A DNA stretch of 64,000 nt. It comes from Epilithonimonas bovis DSM 19482 (GTDB lineage: Bacteria > Bacteroidota > Bacteroidia > Flavobacteriales > Weeksellaceae). Of the stretch, positions 17,573-30,764 are shown piece by piece. Numbering within the stretch: position 1 is the stretch's first letter; every line of letters starts with the position of its first letter. The notes beneath the pieces were generated by a model. The model saw only the letters and a list, made by a program, of their open reading frames with translations, searched no databases and was not told where the DNA came from. Location: contig NZ_FTPU01000002.1 in NCBI RefSeq assembly GCF_900108115.1, positions 1-64,000 of the forward strand, given 5' to 3'. A program made the translations under genes and the position numbers.

Positions 17573-17923
17573 ATGATCACAACAGAGAAAACTTTATCGG
17601 AAGTTATGGAGATCCTCAGACAGCGGGGCTATACCGAAGACTTCAACCTATTGGAGGTTTCCGCATCCTATACGCCGGACAAACATTGCATCAACATCAA
17701 TGATCTGGTCATTGATAAGATCTACCGTTTTACCGGGCAGAACGATCCGGATGATGAAGCCATCCTTTACGCTATGCACAATAAGAGTGATGGGGCTAAA
17801 GGTGTATTTGTGAATGGTTACGGGACCTACACGGACACCGAAGCAGACGAGATCATCAGTAAAATTGCAGTACATGAAAATGATGCGGATGATTGGACAA
17901 TAGATTGCTCAGGTAACTGCTAA
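17573..17923 (+). CDS. conserved small protein of unknown function (116 aa)
   Basis: The protein reads LSEVMEILRQRGYTEDFNL, then INDLVIDKIYRFTGQNDPDDEAILYAM and GAKGVFVNGYGTYTD. This matches a widespread Bacteroidota family of about 100 residues, often mislabelled phosphoribosylpyrophosphate synthetase and often found near metal-efflux genes. No catalytic motif is evident. The C-terminus CSGNC carries two Cys. Function is unknown. Confidence 0.65.
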   Translation: MITTEKTLSEVMEILRQRGYTEDFNLLEVSASYTPDKHCININDLVIDKIYRFTGQNDPDDEAILYAMHNKSDGAKGVFVNGYGTYTDTEADEIISKIAVHENDADDWTIDCSGNC

Positions 17924-18360: not shown

Positions 18361-18909
18361 ATAGCTGAAAATCTCCTCCAAAGAGATTTTTCAGCGGATT
18401 CCCTCTCGCAAAAATGGGTTGGAGACATCACTTACATCCATACTGGCAAAGGTTGGCTCTATCTAACAACAGTCATCGATCTTGAGGACAGAAAAGTCAT
18501 CGGATGGTCTTTGAGTACCGATATGACTGCTAAAAACACTTCTGTAGAAGCCATCAAAATGGGTATTGTAAACCGGGGTGTCAAAGGTGGGCTTATTTTC
18601 CATTCGGATAGAGGGATCCAATATGCCTGCGATGAATTCAGCGAGGTAATTGTAGAAAACAAGATACTTCAAAGCATTAGCAGGAAGGCGAATTGTTGGG
18701 ACAATGCAGTGGCTGAGAGCTTTTTCAAGACGTTAAAGGCGGAAATGGTTTATCAGAGGAAATTCATGGATCAGCAGGCGGCTAAATTAGAGGTTTTTGG
18801 ATATATTGAGGGATTTTATAATACCAAAAGAACACATTCTGCACTGGGGTGTAAAACCCCCAAGCAGATCGAAGAGATGCTGCTGGATAAAGAAAGATTG
18901 GCAGCATAA
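18361..18909 (+). pseudogene. IS3-family transposase OrfB, C-terminal part
   Basis: The frame begins without a start at about 18361 (AENLLQRDF) and continues KWVGDITYI, then the integrase core with Asp in WVGDIT, Asp in FHSDRGIQY and Glu in AVAESFFKTLK. It ends HSALGCKTPKQIEEML. The DDE core is complete, but OrfA and the N-terminus of OrfB are gone, so the element cannot move by itself. The right end is probably near 18943 (AAGTTGCAATTCC). Confidence 0.85.
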
Positions 18910-20068: not shown

Positions 20069-20509
20069 ATGGCACTAGTAAAAACAAATTTTCCATTATT
20101 CGGAAATCTTTTTGATGATTTCTTTGGCACCGAATTGGCCGATTGGAGAAACCAAAACTATTCGGCTACCAACACCACACTTCCTAAAGTAAACATTAAG
20201 GAAGACGAAAATGGGTTTGTAGTTGAAATGGCTGCGCCGGGTATGAAAAAAGGCGATTTTAAAATTAACGTTGATAACAACCTGCTTACAATTTCTTCGC
20301 AAAAGCAGGAAGAACAAAAAGAGGGCGAAGGTGAAAAATACACCAGGAGAGAATTTGCCTACCAGGCTTTCACCCGTTCCTTTACCCTGCCCAATAGCGC
20401 CGATGCTGATAAAGTCAGCGCTTCTTACAACGATGGTATTTTAACCGTTACTATTCCAAAAAAGGAAGAAGCTAAGCCTAAACCGCCAAAAAGCATTGAA
20501 ATTTCGTAA
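20069..20509 (+). CDS. Hsp20 small heat-shock protein (first copy)
   Basis: This 146-residue holdase has the alpha-crystallin domain in about residues 38-140, with AAPGMKKGDFKI, the late strand ILTVTIPKK (the G-x-L motif is GIL) and a short C-terminal tail ending KSIEIS. It binds unfolding proteins and keeps them soluble. It is the first gene behind the Crp/Fnr-type site. A strong hairpin follows, so downstream genes may be transcribed at a lower level. Confidence 0.93.
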   Translation: MALVKTNFPLFGNLFDDFFGTELADWRNQNYSATNTTLPKVNIKEDENGFVVEMAAPGMKKGDFKINVDNNLLTISSQKQEEQKEGEGEKYTRREFAYQAFTRSFTLPNSADADKVSASYNDGILTVTIPKKEEAKPKPPKSIEIS

Positions 20510-20517
20510 TTTATTAT

Positions 20518-20550
20518 AACAGGTCATCGCAAAAATTGCGATGCCCTGTT
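20518..20550 (+). terminator. hairpin between the two hsp20 genes
   Basis: AACAGG pairs with CCTGTT and ATCGCAA with TTGCGAT, with one mismatch pair between. The T run after it is weak, so it may attenuate or stabilise the mRNA rather than end it. Confidence 0.55.
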
Positions 20551-20591
20551 ATTGAATTTAATTGTAAAACTTAAAAAAAAAATAGGCTGAT

Positions 20592-21029
20592 ATGGACTTA
20601 ATTAAATGGACAAAAAACATTAAACCAAAATTTCCAAATGTTGTTGAGAAATTTTTTGGTAAAAAAATTGACGACCAGGCCTCGGGTTCGGAAGAAATCG
20701 CCAGCGTACCCGCAGTGAACATCAACGATAAAGGCAACACCTTTGAAGTTTCTTTGGCCGTGCCGGGAATGGATAAAAAAGACATTAAACTTGAAGTTAA
20801 GGACAATTGCTTAGTTGTTTCTTCTGAAAAACAATACGAAAAAGAAGAAAACGAAGGCAACTGGATGCGCCGTGAATATGGTTATGCCTCGTTCCAACGA
20901 ATGTTTCAATTACCCGAGAATGCCGACCCTGAATATATAGATGCTTCTATGAAAAACGGGGTATTGAAAATAAAAGTTGGTAAAATAAAGGGTAAAGAAG
21001 AAAACAAAAAGGCAATAGAAATTAAATAG
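20592..21029 (+). CDS. Hsp20 small heat-shock protein (second copy)
   Basis: This 145-residue paralogue of the preceding gene has the alpha-crystallin domain from about residue 38 (SVPAVNINDKGNTFEVSLAV) with AVPGMDKKDIKLEV and GVLKIKVGK. It diverges strongly from the first copy, so this is not a recent tandem duplication. Two different Hsp20 genes followed by yfdX are typical of tLST-type loci. Confidence 0.92.
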   Translation: MDLIKWTKNIKPKFPNVVEKFFGKKIDDQASGSEEIASVPAVNINDKGNTFEVSLAVPGMDKKDIKLEVKDNCLVVSSEKQYEKEENEGNWMRREYGYASFQRMFQLPENADPEYIDASMKNGVLKIKVGKIKGKEENKKAIEIK

Positions 21030-21044
21030 TAACCACAGAATTAA

Positions 21045-21995
21045 ATGATTATGAAAATATTAAATAAAATTCTTTATAGTTTTCTGGCAATAGTTTTACT
21101 AACAAGTTGCGGAGATAAAAGCCAAAACAAAAGCGAAGAAAATAGTGTCGCGCAAACGGAAGAAATCCGAATGAAAAAACCGGATGAGTTGGGTATGAAT
21201 GCCGATTCACTTGCAGGTAAGGTTCAGGAGCAGGCAATTGATGCTGTTGAATCATTGAATGACCAAATAGTGGCAGAAGCCTCAGAAGCTCTCGGACAAG
21301 TTTACGTGGCGCTTGACGCCCTCGAAGCAAAGGATACCAAAGGAGCTCTGGTAGCGCTTGAAAAATCAACCGGCAAGTTAAATATTTTACTGGCCCGTAA
21401 ACCCGATTTGGCACTGGTACCTATTGAGGTATCGGTTAAAACCGTTGATCTGGTGACCGACCTTGAAACAATCAGGAATATAAAAAGAGCAGCAAGACAG
21501 GCCTTAAAAGAGGACTATTTCCAGGTGTTGCGCGATGAATTAGCAAAACTGGCCAGTGAATTGCAGGTTACTAAAGTTGAATTACCTTTAGCAACTTTTC
21601 CCGAAGCCATGAAATCAGCAGCGGTTTTAATTGACAAAGGGAAAACTGATGAAGCCAAAGTAGTGCTATACACAGCTATTAACACATTAGTTATAAGCGA
21701 AGAACGCATTCCTTTGCCTATACTAAGGGCACAGGCGCTTATCGCACAGGCCATAACCGATGATGCTTCCAATGAAGACAAAAAGAAAGAGGTGCTCGCA
21801 CTTCTTGACAATGCAGAATACCAGTTAATTATGGCCGAAGAGCTTGGTTATGGCGACCGCGACCGTGAATATAAAGAACTAAACAAAACCATTAAAGAAT
21901 TGAAAAAATCAGTGAAAGATGATGGTGATTCTCAGGCATTGTTTGAGAAATTTAAAACAAAACTTGCTGATTTTAAGAAAAGAATAGCTTCATAA
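21045..21995 (+). CDS. YfdX-family lipoprotein
   Basis: The 316-residue protein has a lipoprotein signal (LLTSCGDKS, lipid on Cys about residue 22) and then a largely alpha-helical YfdX-type domain: SLAGKVQEQAIDAVESLNDQ, GALVALEKSTGKLNILLARK, and ITDDASNEDKKKEVLALLDNAEYQLIMAEELGYGDRD. YfdX proteins are periplasmic acid- and heat-stress factors encoded in tLST islands. The helical repeats differ slightly in spacing, and the Cys lipobox puts it on a membrane surface. Start at 21045 (MIMK) or 21051. Confidence 0.8.
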   Translation: MIMKILNKILYSFLAIVLLTSCGDKSQNKSEENSVAQTEEIRMKKPDELGMNADSLAGKVQEQAIDAVESLNDQIVAEASEALGQVYVALDALEAKDTKGALVALEKSTGKLNILLARKPDLALVPIEVSVKTVDLVTDLETIRNIKRAARQALKEDYFQVLRDELAKLASELQVTKVELPLATFPEAMKSAAVLIDKGKTDEAKVVLYTAINTLVISEERIPLPILRAQALIAQAITDDASNEDKKKEVLALLDNAEYQLIMAEELGYGDRDREYKELNKTIKELKKSVKDDGDSQALFEKFKTKLADFKKRIAS

Positions 21996-22903: not shown

Positions 22904-22930
22904 TTGTTTAATCTTAAAATCTTTAACATT

Positions 22931-23629
22931 ATGATGCTTTGGTTGATATTCGGGATATTTTTTATTTTAATTTTGATTGCGGGAAGCAGACTAAAATCCA
23001 AATTCAGGGAATATACAGCAATTCCTACTGCCAACGGCATGATCGGAGCCGAAGTTGCCCGAAAAATGCTCTACGACCATGGTTGTTATGATGTTAATAT
23101 TACGCCGGTTCAAGGAACTTTAACCGACCAGTACAATCCGCAAACCAAAACTGTAAATCTTAGCCAAGATGTTTATTATGGTACAAATGTAGCGGCAGCT
23201 GCCGTTGGCGCTCACGAAGCAGGCCATGCCGCGCAACATGCTAATGCCTATGCTTGGTTAGGCCTGCGTTCAGCGCTTGTGCCTTTACAAAATATCAGCG
23301 CAACTATTTTAAATATGATTTTTATTGGAATGTTTTTCTGCTTGTTTTTACTCGGAAGTTTATTCTCCATGCAAACGGCACCTTTAATAATTGTTGCATG
23401 TTATGGATTTTTTACCCTTTTTGCATTTATTAAACTACCAGTTGAATTTGATGCAAGCAGCAGGGCATTAGCATGGATTCAATGTACCGGAATAACCGAT
23501 TATTATTCACACTCAAAGGCTGAAAAAGCATTGCGTTCGGCAGCTTAAACTAATATAATTGCTGCTTTGTCTTTGCTTGCTACTTTACTCTATTATTTCT
23601 TTGCTTTGCTTGGACATAGTGATGAATAA
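22931..23629 (+). pseudogene. YugP-type zinc metallopeptidase with an in-frame stop
   Basis: From ATG 22931 the protein has an N-terminal membrane helix, HEAGH (zinc HExxH), and two further helices. This matches YugP/zinc metallopeptidase family 2, which like HtpX acts in membrane protein quality control. After residue 205 (ALRSAA) comes a TAA, but the same frame continues TNIIAALSLLATLLYYFFALLGHSDE, which is the expected last helix. The stop at 23546 thus cuts off about 27 residues. The zinc site is intact, so partial function cannot be excluded. Confidence 0.75.
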
Positions 23630-23644
23630 TAGCTATTTAAGAAT

Positions 23645-24613
23645 ATGGAATACAAAGATTACTATAAAATACTGGGTGTTGATAAGAAAGCCTCTCAGGA
23701 TGAAATAAAGAAGGCATATCGCAAACTGGCGGTAAAATACCATCCGGACAAAAATCCCGGGAACAAGGAAGCAGAAGAAAAATTTAAGGAAATTGGTGAG
23801 GCGAATGAAGTATTGAGTGACCCGGAAAAAAGAAAACTATACGACCAACTGGGCTCCAATTGGAAGCAATACCGGGATGCTGGCTATGACCCATCAACCG
23901 CTGGTGGAAGAGCAAGATATTCACAGGGTGCACCCGGGGGGCAATATTATCATGAGTTTGAAGGCGACCCTTCTGAGTTTTTTGGAGATGGTAGCAGTGG
24001 TTTTTCCGACTTTTTTGAGTCTCTCTTTGGAAGAGGAACCAGACAGGGGAAAGGATTCTCTGGAACCGGCGGGTTTTCCGGGTTCGGTGCAGATATACCC
24101 GGTAACGACTTGGCAGGAGAAATAACTATTTCTTTACAAGAAGCCTACACAGGTACCGAACGCATTATTGACCTGGGGGGTGAAAAGATTAAGCTGAAAA
24201 TAAAACCTGGAGCTTACTCTGGATTAAAACTCCTCGCAAAAGGAAAAGGAGAGAAAGCCCAGGGAGGAAAGGCAGGCAACCTCTACATCACCATCAACGT
24301 GTCCCCTCACCCGGATTATGAGCGCAAAGGAAACGACTTGTATATGAACATGCCTGTGGATTTGTTTACAGCACTACTTGGTGGCAAAATGGAAATCCAA
24401 ACCCTGTCAGGCAGAATAAACATGAAAATTCCTGAAGGTACTCAAAACGGCAAACAGTTCAGGCTTAAAGGAAAGGGTATGCCTGTATATGGTACATCTT
24501 CGCATGGTGACTTATATGTTAAAATTCAGGTGAAGCTACCGGATAAATTGACCCCGGAACAAAAAGAACTGGTTATGAAATTGAGAGACAGTGTTCAGAA
24601 AACAAATCGTTGA
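23645..24613 (+). CDS. DnaJ/CbpA-type co-chaperone
   Basis: The 322-residue protein has a J domain (1-70: [23 protein letters not shown] in YHPDKNPG), a long Gly/Phe-rich region (about 85-150) and two C-terminal beta domains (about 155-310). There are no zinc-finger CxxCxGxG repeats, so it is a class II (CbpA-like) J protein. It would deliver substrates to DnaK. A dnaK stub lies 5 kb downstream, so the native partner may be the chromosomal copy. Confidence 0.93.
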
Positions 24614-24683: not shown

Positions 24684-24782
24684 ATGAAAACAATAATTGT
24701 ACCTACCGATTTTTCTGATTGCACAGATAAAGCACTACGTTATGCCGCTTATATTTCAAAAAAAACCGGTGCCTTAAAATGA
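24684..24782 (+). pseudogene. universal stress protein, N-terminal fragment
   Basis: A 32-residue frame MKTIIVPTDFSDCTDKALRY ending KTGALK* matches the first strand and helix of UspA-like proteins. The TGA at 24780 comes right before the next gene, so about 240 residues or one full Usp domain appear to have been lost by deletion. Confidence 0.65.
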
Positions 24783-24788
24783 AATAAG

Positions 24789-25787
24789 ATGAAAACAACA
24801 ATTCATAACAAACATTTATTGAAAGATAGCAACTTGGCAAGTCAGTTTAGAGAGGTCATAAAAAATCATAATAAATGGTTTGACCGCATGAATGTTCTTC
24901 TTAATTCCAATAAACTTGATGTTTATTTAACAGAAACCAATAAGGGGATAAAAGCAACTTTTTATTTAAAACAAGGAGCTAACCAGGTTTTTGCAGAAGC
25001 TGAAGGCACTGAACCGGCGATCTTAGCTGAACAGATAATGACCCGGCTTAAATCCAGGTTTTTAAGGCAATTTATAGCTTCACAAAAAAAAACAAGACTT
25101 AACATAGCAAGCAAGCATTTATCCCAACTTAATAAGCTAAGAAACGAAGAGGATAAAGAACACTTTAACTTCCTTATAAAACAACTTTTGCCTGCTATCC
25201 GCGGGTTTGTAGCCAGGTATCTTTCGTATAGCAAAACAAAAGTTCCCAGCGGGTTTACAATTGATGATTTGGTGGATGAGATATACCTTGCTCTTTATGA
25301 AAGATTTGAAGAACGACCTAAAAATGACAAAGAGTTCTCCCCATGGAGTTTTCAAATTGCCCGCGAAACTTTGGAAAGTTTTATGACAAAGCATTACACA
25401 AAAAACGCACATATTTCGTTCGATAAGCTGGCTGAAGAAGAACTTTTAAGCATGGAAGAAAAATTTACCGCTGATGCAGACGGAGAACTTATCATGCAGG
25501 AAGATTTGGATGATATTTCTTACGAGAACACAAAATTAGGCAATGAGATTCTCAACAACGATGCGCTAAATGAACTCCCTGCCGATATTGAAATAGAACC
25601 CGTTGTAAACGAGGTTTTGGCTAATGTTGATGAAAATGCTAAACGGGCTTTTGAACTGTTCTGGCTACATGAAATGACTGCTAATGAGATTGCAAAATCG
25701 ATGCGTATGCAAATTGAAGCTGTCGAAAATATCATTGATGATATCACATTCAGTATTGTATCAAAACTAAAAAATAAAAATGTATGA
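24789..25787 (+). CDS. HPF/RaiA-like domain fused to a sigma-70-like protein
   Basis: This 332-residue protein has two parts. Residues 10-105 resemble a ribosome hibernation factor (HPF/RaiA): a helix (FREVIKNHNKWFDRMN), a strand (KLDVYLTET), a strand (IKATFYLKQG) and a helix (ILAEQIMTRLKSRFLRQF). Residues 125-330 look like an ECF-like sigma factor: a region 2-type segment (FTIDDLVDEIYLALYERF and SPWSFQIARETLESFM) and a region 4-type helix-turn-helix (MTANEIAKSMRMQIEAVENI). Its presence in a stress island suggests it links ribosome silencing with transcription, but that is inference. Confidence 0.65.
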   Translation: MKTTIHNKHLLKDSNLASQFREVIKNHNKWFDRMNVLLNSNKLDVYLTETNKGIKATFYLKQGANQVFAEAEGTEPAILAEQIMTRLKSRFLRQFIASQKKTRLNIASKHLSQLNKLRNEEDKEHFNFLIKQLLPAIRGFVARYLSYSKTKVPSGFTIDDLVDEIYLALYERFEERPKNDKEFSPWSFQIARETLESFMTKHYTKNAHISFDKLAEEELLSMEEKFTADADGELIMQEDLDDISYENTKLGNEILNNDALNELPADIEIEPVVNEVLANVDENAKRAFELFWLHEMTANEIAKSMRMQIEAVENIIDDITFSIVSKLKNKNV

Positions 25788-26143
25788 AAAAGATAGAAAC
25801 AATAGTTCCGTACAACCAAAATGTGCCGTTGCATATTGGGGCTTTTATTGAAGCCATAGAACAATTGGAAATGCACTTCAATGCTGCATCCATGGAGCAT
25901 TTTTTCGAATCAGATAAGGAGTTGGGGATGGCTATTAAACGGGCAATGGCTATTTGCAGGAATTTAGGGTTTCCGCTTGAGCAGCACTTCAGCAAAAGGT
26001 ACGTTTCTAACAGCGATTCGCATAACTTAAAGATTGACTGGCAAATGTCTAAAACGGCGTATTTCCTAACCATGATTAATGGCGACCCAGACAATCCTTT
26101 AGTTGGCCGTTTTCAATGGGAGTTGTTAAAAAAAATGGTCTGA
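25784..26143 (+). CDS. small cytoplasmic protein of unknown function (119 aa)
   Basis: It overlaps the previous gene by 4 bases (ATGA), so the two are translated together. Visible features are IEAIEQLEMHFNAASMEHFF, AIKRAMAICRNLGFPLEQHF, and a C-terminal MINGDPDNPLVGRFQWELL. No signal or membrane segment is present. Similar small proteins appear beside the same fusion gene type, but I do not recognise a named family. Confidence 0.6.
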   Translation: MKKIETIVPYNQNVPLHIGAFIEAIEQLEMHFNAASMEHFFESDKELGMAIKRAMAICRNLGFPLEQHFSKRYVSNSDSHNLKIDWQMSKTAYFLTMINGDPDNPLVGRFQWELLKKMV

Positions 26144-26360: not shown

Positions 26361-26984
26361 ATGACAACAATTAGTAATGAATTTCAAGACGAACAAAAGG
26401 GAATAAAAAGTATTTCCTCAAACTGGTGGGCTTTCATCATTAAAGGCTTCCTTGCGCTAATATTCTCTGTGTTGGCTTTTATTATGCCCGCTACAGCCAT
26501 ACTTGCCCTGGCAATTGTTTTTGGTGCATTTGCCTTAGCTGATGGTATTTTTGGCATTATTGCATCGGTTCGGAAAATCAGGAAGGGAAAGCGGTGGGGA
26601 TGGCTTATTTTTAGCGCTATTATAAGTATACTGGCAGGTATTGCTGTTATTGTTTCTCCACTTATTGCCACTGTTGCAATTGCCAGCTTTTTATGGGCCA
26701 GCATTAGTTTTTGGTCAATATTCGTTGGCATATCAGAAATAATAACAGCCTTTCGGCTTCGCAAAGAAATCAAAGGAGAATTGTGGATGATATTAAGCGG
26801 ATTATTCTCAGTTATATTGGGAGCTATCATCCTCTGGATGTTTATAACCCAACCTGAAAATGTATTGTTGGCTTCGGGTTGGTTGCTTGGAATTAATGCG
26901 TTTCTATCGGCAATGACTTATTTCTTTTTGGGTTTTAAATTAAAAAAAACATCAGAAAATGGTGCAAAAATAAAACTTTGGTAA
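26361..26984 (+). CDS. HdeD-family (DUF308) membrane protein
   Basis: The 207-residue protein has six membrane helices and the repeated DUF308 pattern: FIMPATAILALAIVFGAFALADGIFGI in the first half and a similar SFWSIFVGISEIITAFRLRKEIKGE in the second, followed by LWMILSGLFSVILGAIIL. HdeD is an acid-resistance membrane protein and a standard tLST member. The fit in length and helix pattern is good. Confidence 0.85.
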   Translation: MTTISNEFQDEQKGIKSISSNWWAFIIKGFLALIFSVLAFIMPATAILALAIVFGAFALADGIFGIIASVRKIRKGKRWGWLIFSAIISILAGIAVIVSPLIATVAIASFLWASISFWSIFVGISEIITAFRLRKEIKGELWMILSGLFSVILGAIILWMFITQPENVLLASGWLLGINAFLSAMTYFFLGFKLKKTSENGAKIKLW

Positions 26985-27002: not shown

Positions 27003-28172
27003 ATGAATCATGGATTGTTAAACGGACTGTTTATAGTATCGCTTACGATATTATTTTTAGCACTTTTATTAAAAAAGGCGAAACAACCTTATTTTATTGC
27101 CTATATCATAGCGGGAATCATTCTGGGGCCTGAGGTGTTCGGGGTTATTTCAAATTCACCAACGATTAACGAAATTGGAGAACTTGGTGTAATATTACTC
27201 ATGTTTTTTATCGGAGCAGAAATTAACCTGCCCGACTTTTCTAAAAGTTTTAAAAAACCGTTACTGGGTACATTATCGCAATTGCTGCTCAGTTTTGCTT
27301 TCATGGTTATAACAGGTCAAATTTTAAATTGGTCCTGGCAGGTAATTATACTTTTGAGTTTTGTCATCAGTTTAAGTAGTTCTGCCATTATTTTTCAATA
27401 TTTATCAAACACTGGGCAAATTAAAAGTAAAATAGGGCTGTTAACATCCGGAGTATTAATCATGCAAGATATACTCATCGTACCAATGATGCTTACCTTA
27501 AACTTTATGGCCAAAGGTAAATTGGAGACCATTGAGTTAGCAAGAACAGTAGTTGGCGGTCTGGCCATATTGATTTTTATGCATTTCGCCATTCGCAAAA
27601 AACTAATAAAAATTCCATTCAGGCAAGATTTGATACGAGACCACGACTTGCAAGTATTTTTGGGTTTTGTTTTGTGTTTTGGCATGGCACAGGTAAGTCA
27701 TTGGTTTGGGTTATCGGCTGCTTTGGGGGCGCTTTTGGCAGGTATATTGGTCGGACAGGATAAGTCCACCCAATGGTTAGATCATGCCCTGGTCCCTTTT
27801 CGAGTTTTCTTTTTAGCCTTTTTCTTTTTAGCAGTTGGTTTGCAACTTAACCTGCACTTCGCATACCAAAACATTGGTGTTATATCGTTAATCACCCTTG
27901 CAGTTATGGTTATTAATAGTTTAATAAATGCCATGATATTTAAAGGCATGGGCAGTACATGGCATGATAGTATATATGCCGGAGCTTTGTTATCTCAGAT
28001 TGGCGAATTTAGTTTTGTTCTTGTTAGTGCGGCTGCTTCCCTGGGGGTAATAGGCGATTATAGTTATCAAATGACCTTAGCTGTAATAACTGCTACCATG
28101 ATGATAACTTCTGTTTGGATAGGGATAATACAAAATTTCATTTATAAGCTCCCTAAATTATCTCATAACTAA
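27003..28172 (+). CDS. KefB-type cation:proton antiporter, membrane domain
   Basis: The 389-residue protein has about twelve helices of the Na/H exchanger (CPA2) family. LLMFFIGAEINL, the QDILIVPMML segment and GLSAALGALLAGILVG are typical. It lacks the cytoplasmic TrkA-N (RCK) domain of full KefB, so it is a membrane-only form, about 200 residues shorter than E. coli KefB. kefB is also a regular tLST member, where it contributes to oxidative and acid stress resistance. It follows hdeD by 18 bases. Confidence 0.82.
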   Translation: MNHGLLNGLFIVSLTILFLALLLKKAKQPYFIAYIIAGIILGPEVFGVISNSPTINEIGELGVILLMFFIGAEINLPDFSKSFKKPLLGTLSQLLLSFAFMVITGQILNWSWQVIILLSFVISLSSSAIIFQYLSNTGQIKSKIGLLTSGVLIMQDILIVPMMLTLNFMAKGKLETIELARTVVGGLAILIFMHFAIRKKLIKIPFRQDLIRDHDLQVFLGFVLCFGMAQVSHWFGLSAALGALLAGILVGQDKSTQWLDHALVPFRVFFLAFFFLAVGLQLNLHFAYQNIGVISLITLAVMVINSLINAMIFKGMGSTWHDSIYAGALLSQIGEFSFVLVSAAASLGVIGDYSYQMTLAVITATMMITSVWIGIIQNFIYKLPKLSHN

Positions 28173-28221: not shown

Positions 28222-28725
28222 ATGAACTCAAATTTCATAAAGATGGGATTAACCATTATTTTGGTGATAGTTGTATTCCTTCTGAAAGCGTTAAGTAAAA
28301 AACGACTTATTAAGCTTTCTGCAATTTATTCATATGAACCACATCGTCTATCTCTGGTAAGAAAAACGATTGCTATAGCTTTTTGGATTGCTTTGATTTT
28401 TTTAACGCTTATCATTTGGGGGTTAAACCCAAATAATGTTTGGGTATATCTTGGTGGTTTTCTCTCTGTTGTAGCAATTGGGTTGTTTGCTGTATGGAGT
28501 ATTTTAAGCAATATTATTTCAGGAATATTTATTTTTATAATCAATCCTTTCAAAATAGGTTCGAAAATAAAGCCGTATGACCCTGAAGTACAAGCGACAG
28601 TAGTAAATATAAATCTGATGTTTACTGAATTAGAAGATGATGATGGAATCTTTAACGTACCAAATAATACTTTCTTTCAAAAAACCGTCAAGGGTATTAA
28701 TGCGGAAAAAAAACAACCAAATTAA
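28222..28725 (+). CDS. MscS-like mechanosensitive channel protein (short)
   Basis: A 167-residue protein with three membrane helices and an MscS-type pore-lining segment and beta domain: SILSNIISGIFIFIINPFKIGSKIKP and ELEDDDGIFNVPNNTFFQKTV. The usual C-terminal cytoplasmic domain is missing. Such small MscS proteins release solutes under osmotic shock. The gene starts 49 bases after the antiporter and touches the next gene, so it is in the same operon. Confidence 0.75.
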   Translation: MNSNFIKMGLTIILVIVVFLLKALSKKRLIKLSAIYSYEPHRLSLVRKTIAIAFWIALIFLTLIIWGLNPNNVWVYLGGFLSVVAIGLFAVWSILSNIISGIFIFIINPFKIGSKIKPYDPEVQATVVNINLMFTELEDDDGIFNVPNNTFFQKTVKGINAEKKQPN

Positions 28726-29301
28726 ATGAACACATTTAAAAAACTGATAATAATAGCTCTTATACTCTTTTTTGGGTATTTGATTTTGCGTATGGTTTTA
28801 AATAGTGAAAAGACAGAACCTTTTACATACGAGATATTTGCAGCCATTATAGGTTTCACAATAACTGCCCTAACAACCTGGTCGTTGCTGGGGAAACAAA
28901 CCGAAAATGAGCTTAACAAAGAGGTACGTATTCGTTTTTTAACTTTAAAAACGACCATTTACCAGGAACTTATAAGGCAATTGGAAGATATTGTGCGTAA
29001 AGAAAAGATTACCCACGAGGATATAATAGAATTAAGGCTTTTAAGCCAACGAATGATTTTTATTGCTGGTGAAAATGTTTTGGTTGCGTTCAATAAGTTT
29101 GTTATCCGGTTTGTTAGGCTGGCGAAAAATGAAAAGATTTCTGAAAAAGACCTGGATGATTTGTTAGATGAAATGTCAATGGTTTCGGTTGAAATAAGAA
29201 ACGATATTTTAGATAATAAGGTAAATCAAGATATGGATGTTCAATCCTTTGAAAAACTTATTCTTAAAACAAATGAACTTATGGATTTTTCGGATAATTG
29301 A
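28726..29301 (+). CDS. membrane-anchored protein of unknown function
   Basis: The 191-residue protein has two N-terminal helices (about 5-24 and 36-55) and a cytoplasmic helical domain rich in Glu, Lys and Arg (QELIRQLEDIVRKEKITHEDI, NEKISEKDLDDLLDEM). It directly abuts the MscS gene, so it may modulate or scaffold that channel. No named family is recognised. Confidence 0.6.
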   Translation: MNTFKKLIIIALILFFGYLILRMVLNSEKTEPFTYEIFAAIIGFTITALTTWSLLGKQTENELNKEVRIRFLTLKTTIYQELIRQLEDIVRKEKITHEDIIELRLLSQRMIFIAGENVLVAFNKFVIRFVRLAKNEKISEKDLDDLLDEMSMVSVEIRNDILDNKVNQDMDVQSFEKLILKTNELMDFSDN

Positions 29302-29533: not shown

Positions 29534-30764
29534 TTATAATCTGAGCCTTTTTTCAAAAATAAGCATAAATTGGTTTAAAACCAATCCCCAATTATGGATA
29601 GGCATTGTCCATTTTTTGGTAGCTTCTTTTAGAGCAAGATACACCGACTTTAAAACAGCATCATCCGTAGGGAAAGACATTTTATTTTTAGTGTATTTTC
29701 GGATTTTTCCATTGAGGTTTTCAATTAAATTGGTGGTGTAAATGATTTTTCGGATTTCGATTGGGAAATCAAAAAATACGGTGAGTTCGTCCCAATTGTT
29801 TCTCCAGGATTGAATGGCGTACAAATATTTACTTTCCCATTTGGTTGCAAAATCTTCCAGGGCTGCTTTGGCGGCTTCTTTTGTAGGCGCAGTATAAATG
29901 TGTTTCATATCGGCAGAAAACGCTTTTCTGTCCTTCCAAACCACGTATTTACAAGCATTTCTTATCTGGTGGACTACGCAGATTTGGGTTTGGGATTCAG
30001 GGAAAACGGAGCGGATGGTCTGGGTAAATCCATTTAAATTATCGGTAGCGGTAATCAAAATATCTTCAACACCACGAGCTTTTAAATCGGTTAAAACACT
30101 CATCCAAAAGCTGGAACTTTCGTTCTTTCCAAGCCACATTCCAAGAACTTCTTTTTTGCCTTCACGGTTCAAGCCTACGGCTAAATAAATGGTTTTGTTA
30201 ATGACTTTGGAGTTCTCACGAACCTTAAAAACAATTCCGTCCATCCAAACAATCAGATACAATTCGTCTAAAGGTCGGTTTTGCCACGCAACGACTTCAC
30301 TGGCAACAGCATTAGTTATTCGAGAAATTGTTGACGTAGAAACCTCAAAATCATACATATCCCTAATCTGTTCCTCAATATCTGAAACGCTCATTCCTTT
30401 AGCATAAAACGAGATAATGATATTCTCCAAACCATCGATGATATTGTGTCTTTTGGGAACTAAAGCAGGTTCAAAACTCCCTTCTCTATCACGAGGAACT
30501 TTAATTTGGCTTCGCCGAACCACTTCGTTAGGTTTCGGATTCGCCAAATGATGATTTTATCTTCTTAGTTCCGTGTCCGTTTCGGTAGTTTCCATTGGTG
30601 GTTTTTTCGTGTTTTTCATTGTCAAGATGGCTGTCTAATTCAGCATCCAGCATATGTTCTACTGCTTTTTTGTGCAGTTCTTTGAAGAACGAGGTTAAAT
30701 CTTCTCCGTTTTTGAAGGATTTGTAGAAATCCTTGTTGTTTAATAAATCTTCTTTACTGGTCAT
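29534..30764 (-). pseudogene. IS256-family transposase interrupted by a small insert
   Basis: The N-terminal 74 residues (MTSKEDLLNNKDFYKSFK to SSFGES) and the rest ([20 protein letters not shown] onward) lie in different frames. Between GES and QIKV about 28 extra bases are inserted (a copy of the 32-base repeat below), which shifts the frame. The C-terminal part has the DDE-type core: [18 protein letters not shown] and [11 protein letters not shown]. The original protein was about 400 residues. It is probably inactive. Confidence 0.85.
30505..30536 (-). repeat. 32-base repeat, copy inside the transposase
   Basis: The plus strand reads TTTGGCTTCGCC, GAACCACTTCG and TTAGGTTTC in succession. 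It matches 30798-30829 for all 32 bases and breaks the transposase reading frame. Confidence 0.7.

Follow-up and report, generated by a model that had tools for sequence, protein, structure and literature searches.

The 64,000-nt stretch of Epilithonimonas bovis DSM 19482 analyzed here (referred to as the window) encodes a protein in which, as we regard as near certain, a ribosome hibernation (HPF/RaiA-like) domain and sigma-70 regions 2 and 4 are joined. Our preferred reading, to which we assign a probability of roughly 0.4, is that of a stress factor that would park ribosomes and, while not itself reading promoters, dock on RNA polymerase or a different sigma-binding protein. The open reading frame lies where the preliminary description had placed it, and the domains assigned there to residues 10–105 (HPF/RaiA) and 125–330 (sigma regions 2 and 4) were recovered at about residues 1–98, by profile-profile comparison, predicted fold and relatives, and at residues 129–199 and 277–329, respectively:

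24789..25787, + strand: HPF-sigma fusion gene, 332 aa, ATG start
24789..25082, + strand: HPF/RaiA-like domain, about residues 1–98 (profile-profile E 4e-10; predicted fold, VIA-align Z 9.8 to 8fmw_W; three relatives exceed the PF02482 cut-off singly)
25083..25172, + strand: connecting segment, about residues 99–128 (from the alignment; predicted helical in a low-confidence model)
25173..25385, + strand: sigma-70 region 2, residues 129–199 (PF04542, 28.7 bits; 2.2 and 2.3 sigma-like, 2.4 not clearly basic)
25446..25526, + strand: conserved acidic linker motif, about residues 220–246, common to fused and stand-alone relatives
25617..25775, + strand: sigma-70 region 4 (helix-turn-helix), residues 277–329 (PF04545 E 0.06; ECF region-4 HMM E 7e-12; recognition helix not basic)

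The order HPF, region 2, region 4 is the same in 25 loci of 21 Bacteroidota genomes, and in one of these proteins (L170) all three parts exceed their Pfam cut-offs in that order (PF02482 34.6, Sigma70_r2 25.5 and Sigma70_r4_2 34.0 bits). A chance reading frame or an assembly artifact was rejected in view of this recurrence in 21 genomes and a long-term dN/dS of about 0.1. Profile searches of the window protein by itself bore out part of the assignment. Only Sigma70_r2 passes its Pfam cut-off (28.7 bits, cut-off 24), region 4 is weak, and no HPF family was found by HMMER, PF02482 included; the single PF02482 match in this genome is a free HPF encoded elsewhere. The NCBIfam sigma70-ECF model (TIGR02937) covers residues 126–316 with 57.2 bits (cut-off 42.9), and a region-4 HMM built from ECF sigma factors matches with the E-value given above.

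The HPF half was recognized from the family as a whole. When the N-termini of 18 fused proteins (alignment A3, consisting of the window protein, P0001, and 17 fused relatives) were compared with 31 free Bacteroidota HPFs using hhalign, a probability of 96.7 was obtained over 98 columns, and the control comparison of the C-terminal halves with the free HPFs gave 0.1. Searched against PDB sequences, the A3 profile matched HPF chains within positions 1–128 (best E 5e-5) and sigma chains within positions 123–353 (best E 1.3e-7). In scans of single proteins, PF02482 was passed by 3 of 13 fused proteins (L170, 34.6 bits; L173, 26.0; L175, 24.6; cut-off 23.7), scored below the cut-off in four and was absent in six. 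The reading frames of G653 and G037 reached 25.0 and 23.4/23.8 bits, the corresponding proteins alone 23.2 and 19.6. L175 also has sigma region 4 over the cut-off, and L173 shows no sigma match at E 0.1.

Structure prediction likewise agreed with the proposed layout in one half of the protein. An AlphaFold model of the window protein, computed from four sequences only (mean pLDDT 46, block means of 50–78 over residues 1–90), shows with modest confidence the beta-alpha-beta-beta-beta-alpha order of the HPF topology and is uninformative on the sigma half. With VIA-align, rows 1–21 were HPF/RaiA-type chains (Z 9.8 to 7.6), headed by 8fmw_W from a hibernating Borrelia ribosome (Z 9.8, rmsd 2.3, 90 residues); since the first unrelated row also has a Z of 7.6, it is the upper rows that count. 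This listing is the main basis of the fold match, and it barely tests the sigma half. The first ten Foldseek rows were of HPF/RaiA type as well, at E 0.07–0.29, and no row had an E below 0.001.

The N-terminal part carries a net charge of +6 to +16 in the 18 A3 rows and of +3 to +13 in four distant fusions, counts that take in the start of the connecting helix, compared to a mean of +3.6 (range −3 to +9, n = 31) for free HPFs. The connecting segment is rich in Arg and Lys in most relatives. The fusion shares with short HPF/RaiA (YfiA) its N-terminal fold and topology, a basic domain and both profile and structural matches, but free HPFs here measure 95–108 aa, whereas the fusion adds a sigma-derived part of about 230 aa and its HPF end is more basic on average. 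Long HPFs, such as that of S. aureus (chain 5nd8 is among the PDB matches, E 6e-5), similarly combine an HPF domain with a C-terminal module, which in the fusion is sigma-like instead of a dimerization domain. The archaeal HibA is described as an HPF/RaiA-like domain joined to a second functional module, although there the HPF-like part is C-terminal and the partner module is CBS (PMC13324472). The decoding site is reported to tolerate divergence of HPF sequences (PMC10618245).

The sigma half was scored region by region with HMMs built on 33 ECF-type proteins taken from other genomes, comparing nine ECFs of the window's genome with up to 28 family members. No anchor was obtained for five of the 28 family rows in region 2.2 and for one row each in 2.3, 2.4 and 4.2, the anchors of L084 in 2.2 and L010 in 2.4 are doubtful, and the Fulvivirga copy (P0007), in which about 20 residues of region 2 around region 2.3 are missing, was omitted. 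The clearest change lies in region 2.4, the part of a sigma factor that recognizes the −10 element, where the family scores −0.24 versus 0.88 for the ECFs (p 1e-5) and has a mean charge of −2.63 (n = 27) versus +2.44 (n = 9); the window protein is milder (score 0.09, charge +1). No difference in score was seen in region 2.3 (ECFs 1.07, family 0.83; p 0.24) or in region 4.1 (ECFs 0.82, family 0.68; p 0.16), the latter being more acidic in the family (−0.33 against −2.0, p 0.02). The core-binding helix of region 2.2 scores lower in the family (0.64 versus 1.20, p 4e-4) at equal charge, and its D..(D/N)(E/D/Q) pattern is kept in most family rows (23 of 28 anchored). Region 4.2 is lower too (0.61 versus 0.94, p 0.006), with a recognition helix of charge −0.26 versus +1.33 in the ECFs (p 0.05) and −2 in the window protein.

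Counts based on simpler anchors, some of them wrong (for instance in P0007, L071 and L065), point in the same direction. By these counts, an asparagine that 18 of 30 ECF rows have at a given position occurs in 2 of 23 family rows; some family members have a mildly basic region 4. The C-terminal half has a net charge of −17 to −31 in the 18 A3 rows, −13 to −24 in the four distant fusions and −3 to −28 in 11 sigma-only proteins, and 43 ECF-type ORFs used for comparison average +1.4 (minimum −6, maximum +18). The family thus seems to have kept the fold of a sigma module without its basic −10-recognition surface. The promoter choice proposed in the preliminary description sits poorly with a region 2.4 that is acidic across the family and with so strongly acidic a C-terminal half. 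The idea that decay of a single gene made the sigma half acidic was rejected, the trait being common to the family.

Between regions 2 and 4 the motif [ST]xDxDGxLxMxEELDDISY is found at 25446–25526 of the window and at the same place in relatives. It resembles an EF-hand calcium loop, save at the first position; a Pfam scan of eight linkers gave no EF-hand match. Overall, the family agrees with ECF sigma-70 factors in having regions 2 and 4 in order and in 2.3 and 4.1 scores like those of the genome's own ECFs. It differs from them in the acidic 2.4 of most members, the little-charged recognition helix, the long conserved acidic linker, the HPF domain at the N-terminus and its placement in a separate clade (100/99).

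The 25 fused loci comprise the window, L020 of Sphingobacterium, L021 of a Flavobacterium MAG, the frameshifted L022 of Niabella and L023 of Fulvivirga, 16 further loci in 12 genomes, where the G841 copy ends at a contig end, and four in a distant class. In a draw taken evenly across the phylum, fusions were present in 5 of 395 genomes (G000, G007, G037, G073 and G018; those of G073 and G018 appeared first as partial matches and proved full-length on closer inspection) and sigma-only relatives in seven, the other 12 listed genomes matching through part of a sigma region only. Denser sampling gave fusions in 10 of 298 genomes of the order of G037, 4 of 244 of the class of G073, and 5 of 294 of the family of G007, three of the last already counted. 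Other phyla were covered by one scan of genome contigs for close relatives. No relatives of the fusion were found on plasmids (protein and DNA searches) or viral contigs. Similarity to the window protein is 97% for the copies of Sphingobacterium and Flavobacterium and 96% for that of Niabella, and these near-identical copies in hosts of different genera point to recent transfer of the fusion between genera.

The two halves also occur apart. In G623 separate genes follow each other in the order YfdX, sigma (224 aa), HdeD, HPF (114 aa), YfdX and HdeD being assigned by Pfam; in G471 YfdX, HdeD and HPF share a contig, and the sigma gene lies on a different one. PF02482 stays below its cut-off in both separate HPFs (E 0.0019 and 0.0047). 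The linker motif is kept in the sigma-only relatives, and in a tree of 39 rows the fused and sigma-only forms group in a single clade, separate from 10 ECFs (100/99). The labels need few changes, and a single old fusion with two losses would account for them, though several of the inner branches are uncertain. We take the split and sigma-only forms, together with the one-clade tree, as a sign that the HPF and sigma parts belong together functionally. As a separate observation, in L089 (G037) and L073 (G653) two diverged HPF-sigma genes follow each other, separated by YfdX, and FtsH lies downstream.

Compared with the Fulvivirga gene, dN/dS is about 0.1 for the HPF, sigma region 2 and linker parts, a rough value as dS is 2–3 and silent sites are near saturation. 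Among the near-identical copies, replacing and silent changes number 12:4 (window and L020), 12:1 (window and L021) and 12:3 (L020 and L021), and pN/pS over all compared island genes is 0.48–0.56. The low dN/dS points to long-term purifying selection on the gene, and the excess of replacing changes in the near-copies suggests that constraint may be relaxed in recent recipients.

The fusion gene stands in a run of stress genes, in line with the stress-island setting proposed for it at first; chaperone and protease genes surround most of the fusions. The neighboring genes in the window are:

20069..21029, + strand: two Hsp20 genes (PF00011)
21045..21995, + strand: YfdX-domain gene (PF10938, 107.6 bits)
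22904..23548, + strand: neutral zinc metallopeptidase gene, 214 aa (242 aa in L020; PF04298)
23645..24613, + strand: DnaJ/CbpA-like chaperone (PF00226, PF01556)
24684..24782, + strand: remnant of a universal-stress-protein gene, 32 codons, ending 6 bases before the fusion start (PF00582, 23.4 bits, cut-off 24)
25784..26143, + strand: 119-aa partner gene, distantly DinD-like, with a four-base overlap (ATGA) with the fusion stop
26361..26984, + strand: HdeD-like membrane protein (PF03729)
27003..28172, + strand: KefB-like cation/proton antiporter (PF00999)
28222..28725, + strand: small mechanosensitive-channel-like gene (PF00924)
28726..29301, + strand: 191-aa gene without Pfam match, recurring in islands (relatives in L020, L075 and L076)

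The names HdeD and KefB are given by resemblance. In L020 the order is Hsp20, Hsp20, YfdX, a 122-aa gene, zinc peptidase, DnaJ, an FtsH piece, thioredoxin, a ClpB-type gene, HPF-sigma, the 119-aa gene, HdeD, KefB-like, MscS-like, the 191-aa gene and DnaK in two pieces; families were assigned by Pfam on the window, L020 or L023 copies, and the FtsH and DnaK pieces by match to L023. All seven genes of the tLST-type set (sHsp20, Clp, FtsH, YfdX, HdeD, Trx and KefB) are present in L020, FtsH as a 161-aa piece, and all except HdeD in L023, while the window and L021 are without FtsH, Trx and Clp. The remnant at 24684–24782 marks the site where these three are missing; its junction is near-identical in L021 and absent in L020 and L022. 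Transposase genes (integrase core; Mutator family) flank the island at 18511–18909 and 29534–30547, and the island of L022 (Niabella defluvii) is decaying, its DnaJ, Clp, HPF-sigma, KefB-like and DnaK genes being broken. Matches to TTTG-N17-22-TAnnTTTG, which we take to be the Bacteroidota housekeeping promoter consensus, number 9 in the window versus 5.5 expected, and 10 of 100 shuffles had as many, so that they hold no promoter information. Small ORFs that look alike by eye recur in or near the islands (window 17573–17923, L023 4452–4733, L075, L076, L092 and L003); the L023 copy matches those of L075, L076 and L092 by blastp, and the window copy has no Pfam match.

Around 14 of 17 fused loci at least one of 14 island proteins was found nearby (tblastn, E 1e-10; the three without a match are L079, L081 and L088), compared to 5 of 11 sigma-only or split loci and 1 of 20 control ECFs. 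The 17 neighborhoods do not count as independent (L020 is nearly a copy of L021, a single genus supplies five loci and two genomes give two each), four control regions are shorter than 10 kb, and the count excludes the window, L022 and the four distant loci. A thioredoxin gene adjoins the fusion in two far-apart lineages, upstream in L072, L074, L087 and L090 and downstream in L170 and L175 (one genus); the short flanks available for L173 and L174 showed no such gene. No anti-sigma gene was recognized by eye in the neighborhoods. Two sigma-only relatives (L093 and L094) adjoin a baeRF release-factor-like gene, identified by Pfam for the L006/L094 copy and 59% identical in L093; baeRF genes have been reported near HPF genes (PMC6514570). 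The islands resemble the published tLST-type islands, described as mobile and as carrying sHsp20, a Clp disaggregase, YfdX, HdeD, Trx, KefB and, in some variants, FtsH (PMC8290217; PMC8407380). The Bacteroidota islands differ in adding DnaJ, DnaK, the zinc peptidase and the HPF-sigma gene; no such gene is named in the passages that describe the published islands, and the word "hibernation" occurs in neither paper (PMC8290217; PMC8407380).

The 119-residue partner described as overlapping the fusion stop is indeed present, starting at 25784. It lies directly downstream of the fusion in seven loci (the window, L020–L023, L075 and L076), and likely relatives were found by DnaJ in L093, beyond HdeD in L077 and, at 16–18% identity, between DnaJ and FtsH in L072, L074, L087 and L090. 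Because likely relatives adjoin DnaJ, HdeD and FtsH elsewhere, the partner would belong to the island and not to the fusion gene alone. It scores 18.5 bits with NF008573 (DinD), against a cut-off of 242; the early part of DinD is weakly matched in 4 of 10 partner relatives (best E 1.7e-4), and phrog_8036, a phage family whose function is not known, in 6 of 10 (best E 2.3e-6). No convincing solved relative was found (best E 0.03), and the model of the partner is poor (pLDDT 48).

According to the preferred reading, heat or oxidative shock would induce the island, and the basic HPF domain would, like free HPF, bind idle 30S subunits at the decoding site, an expectation that stems from its family. 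The sigma module, in which the sigma fold and some of the core-binding helix of 2.2 are predicted to be retained, would dock on the RNA polymerase core (or another sigma-binding protein), probably without normal promoter reading, and one protein could in this way park or tether idle ribosomes and polymerase while chaperones repair the proteome. The architecture, the split operon in G623, the link to the island, the loss of 2.4 versus the retention of 2.3 and 4.1, the opposite charges of the two halves, the long-term purifying selection and the two-factor parallel in E. coli argue for this mechanism. Against it stand the mild 2.4 of the window protein, the mildly basic region 4 of some members, the Fulvivirga copy that is short around 2.3, the near-copies with their excess of replacing changes and the frameshifted Niabella copy. 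Binding of polymerase is not assured, because true ECFs have a stronger 2.2 helix, and the existence of sigma-only relatives implies that the sigma module can work without HPF. An alternative that we consider rather doubtful drops transcription altogether and makes the acidic sigma-derived half a docking module for ribosomes, chaperones or thioredoxin, much like the extension that long HPF has at its C-terminus. The acidic charge throughout and the adjoining thioredoxin genes would suit such a ribosome factor, as would the fusion of HPF to another module reported for HibA (PMC13324472); it is harder to reconcile with regions 2.3 and 4.1 that score like true ECFs, with a 2.2 helix pattern that in most rows is difficult to explain without a sigma-type partner, and with sigma-only forms that have no HPF.

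That the protein is instead a divergent but working ECF-type sigma factor transcribing the island, its HPF domain an N-terminal extension that holds the sigma part on ribosomes, or senses idle ones, until stress, appears unlikely. TIGR02937 and Sigma70_r2 exceed their cut-offs, region 4 of the window protein matches the ECF HMM, its 2.4 is only mildly changed and the gene is part of a stress island; N-terminally extended ECFs are known, their regulation being described as unstudied (PMC8103513). On the other side, the ECF asparagine is rare in the family by the simple anchors, 2.4 is acidic in most members and the C-terminal half very acidic, and since the sigma-only relatives share both traits, decay in one lineage does not account for them. 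A promoter-reading sigma factor is no longer the leading candidate. Less likely still, the sigma-like part might sequester an anti-sigma factor and so free a true stress sigma, with HPF tying this switch to the state of the ribosome. The family-wide degenerate DNA contacts in 2.4 fit such a mimic, and so do weak PDB rows at E 0.03–0.08 (3t0y, 9by5 and 3n0r, presumably PhyR-type response regulators) and PF22233 (PhyR_sigma-like) at E 0.037 in L175, but those rows span no more than region 4, and true sigma factors rank above them. PhyR itself is described as a stress-response protein of ECF fold whose contacts to promoter and core are degenerate (PMC8103513), and the fusion would share with it the sigma fold, the degenerate DNA contacts and the stress setting; PhyR, however, has a receiver domain and the partner NepR, whereas the fusion has HPF at its N-terminus, no receiver-domain match, no known partner and no anti-sigma gene recognized nearby by eye.

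More tentatively, within the preferred reading of a ribosome-parking stress factor, one polypeptide may act on both ends of gene expression, its HPF end plugging idle ribosomes and its DNA-blind sigma end occupying or tethering RNA polymerase. If true, dormancy of translation and of transcription would be tied together physically, by a protein that mobile stress islands carry and that has been conserved throughout the phylum. In E. coli, coordinated hibernation of both machines is reported to rely on separate proteins, HPF/RMF and Rsd (PMC6904343). Our literature search, whose reach took in neither most subscription papers nor bioRxiv preprints, yielded no published description of an HPF-sigma fusion, although public domain databases may list the architecture, and none of such an island in Bacteroidota. 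Hibernation of ribosomes and silencing of polymerase have been described as parallel processes run by separate proteins, and a conserved fusion in one chain, which also has a split form and whose sigma half seems to read promoters no longer, makes a direct physical link testable. With the fusion, the islands that confer tolerance of heat and chlorine, most of whose known genes encode chaperones, proteases or transporters, would gain a regulator, and it suggests that the sigma fold has been reused for a purpose other than promoter reading.
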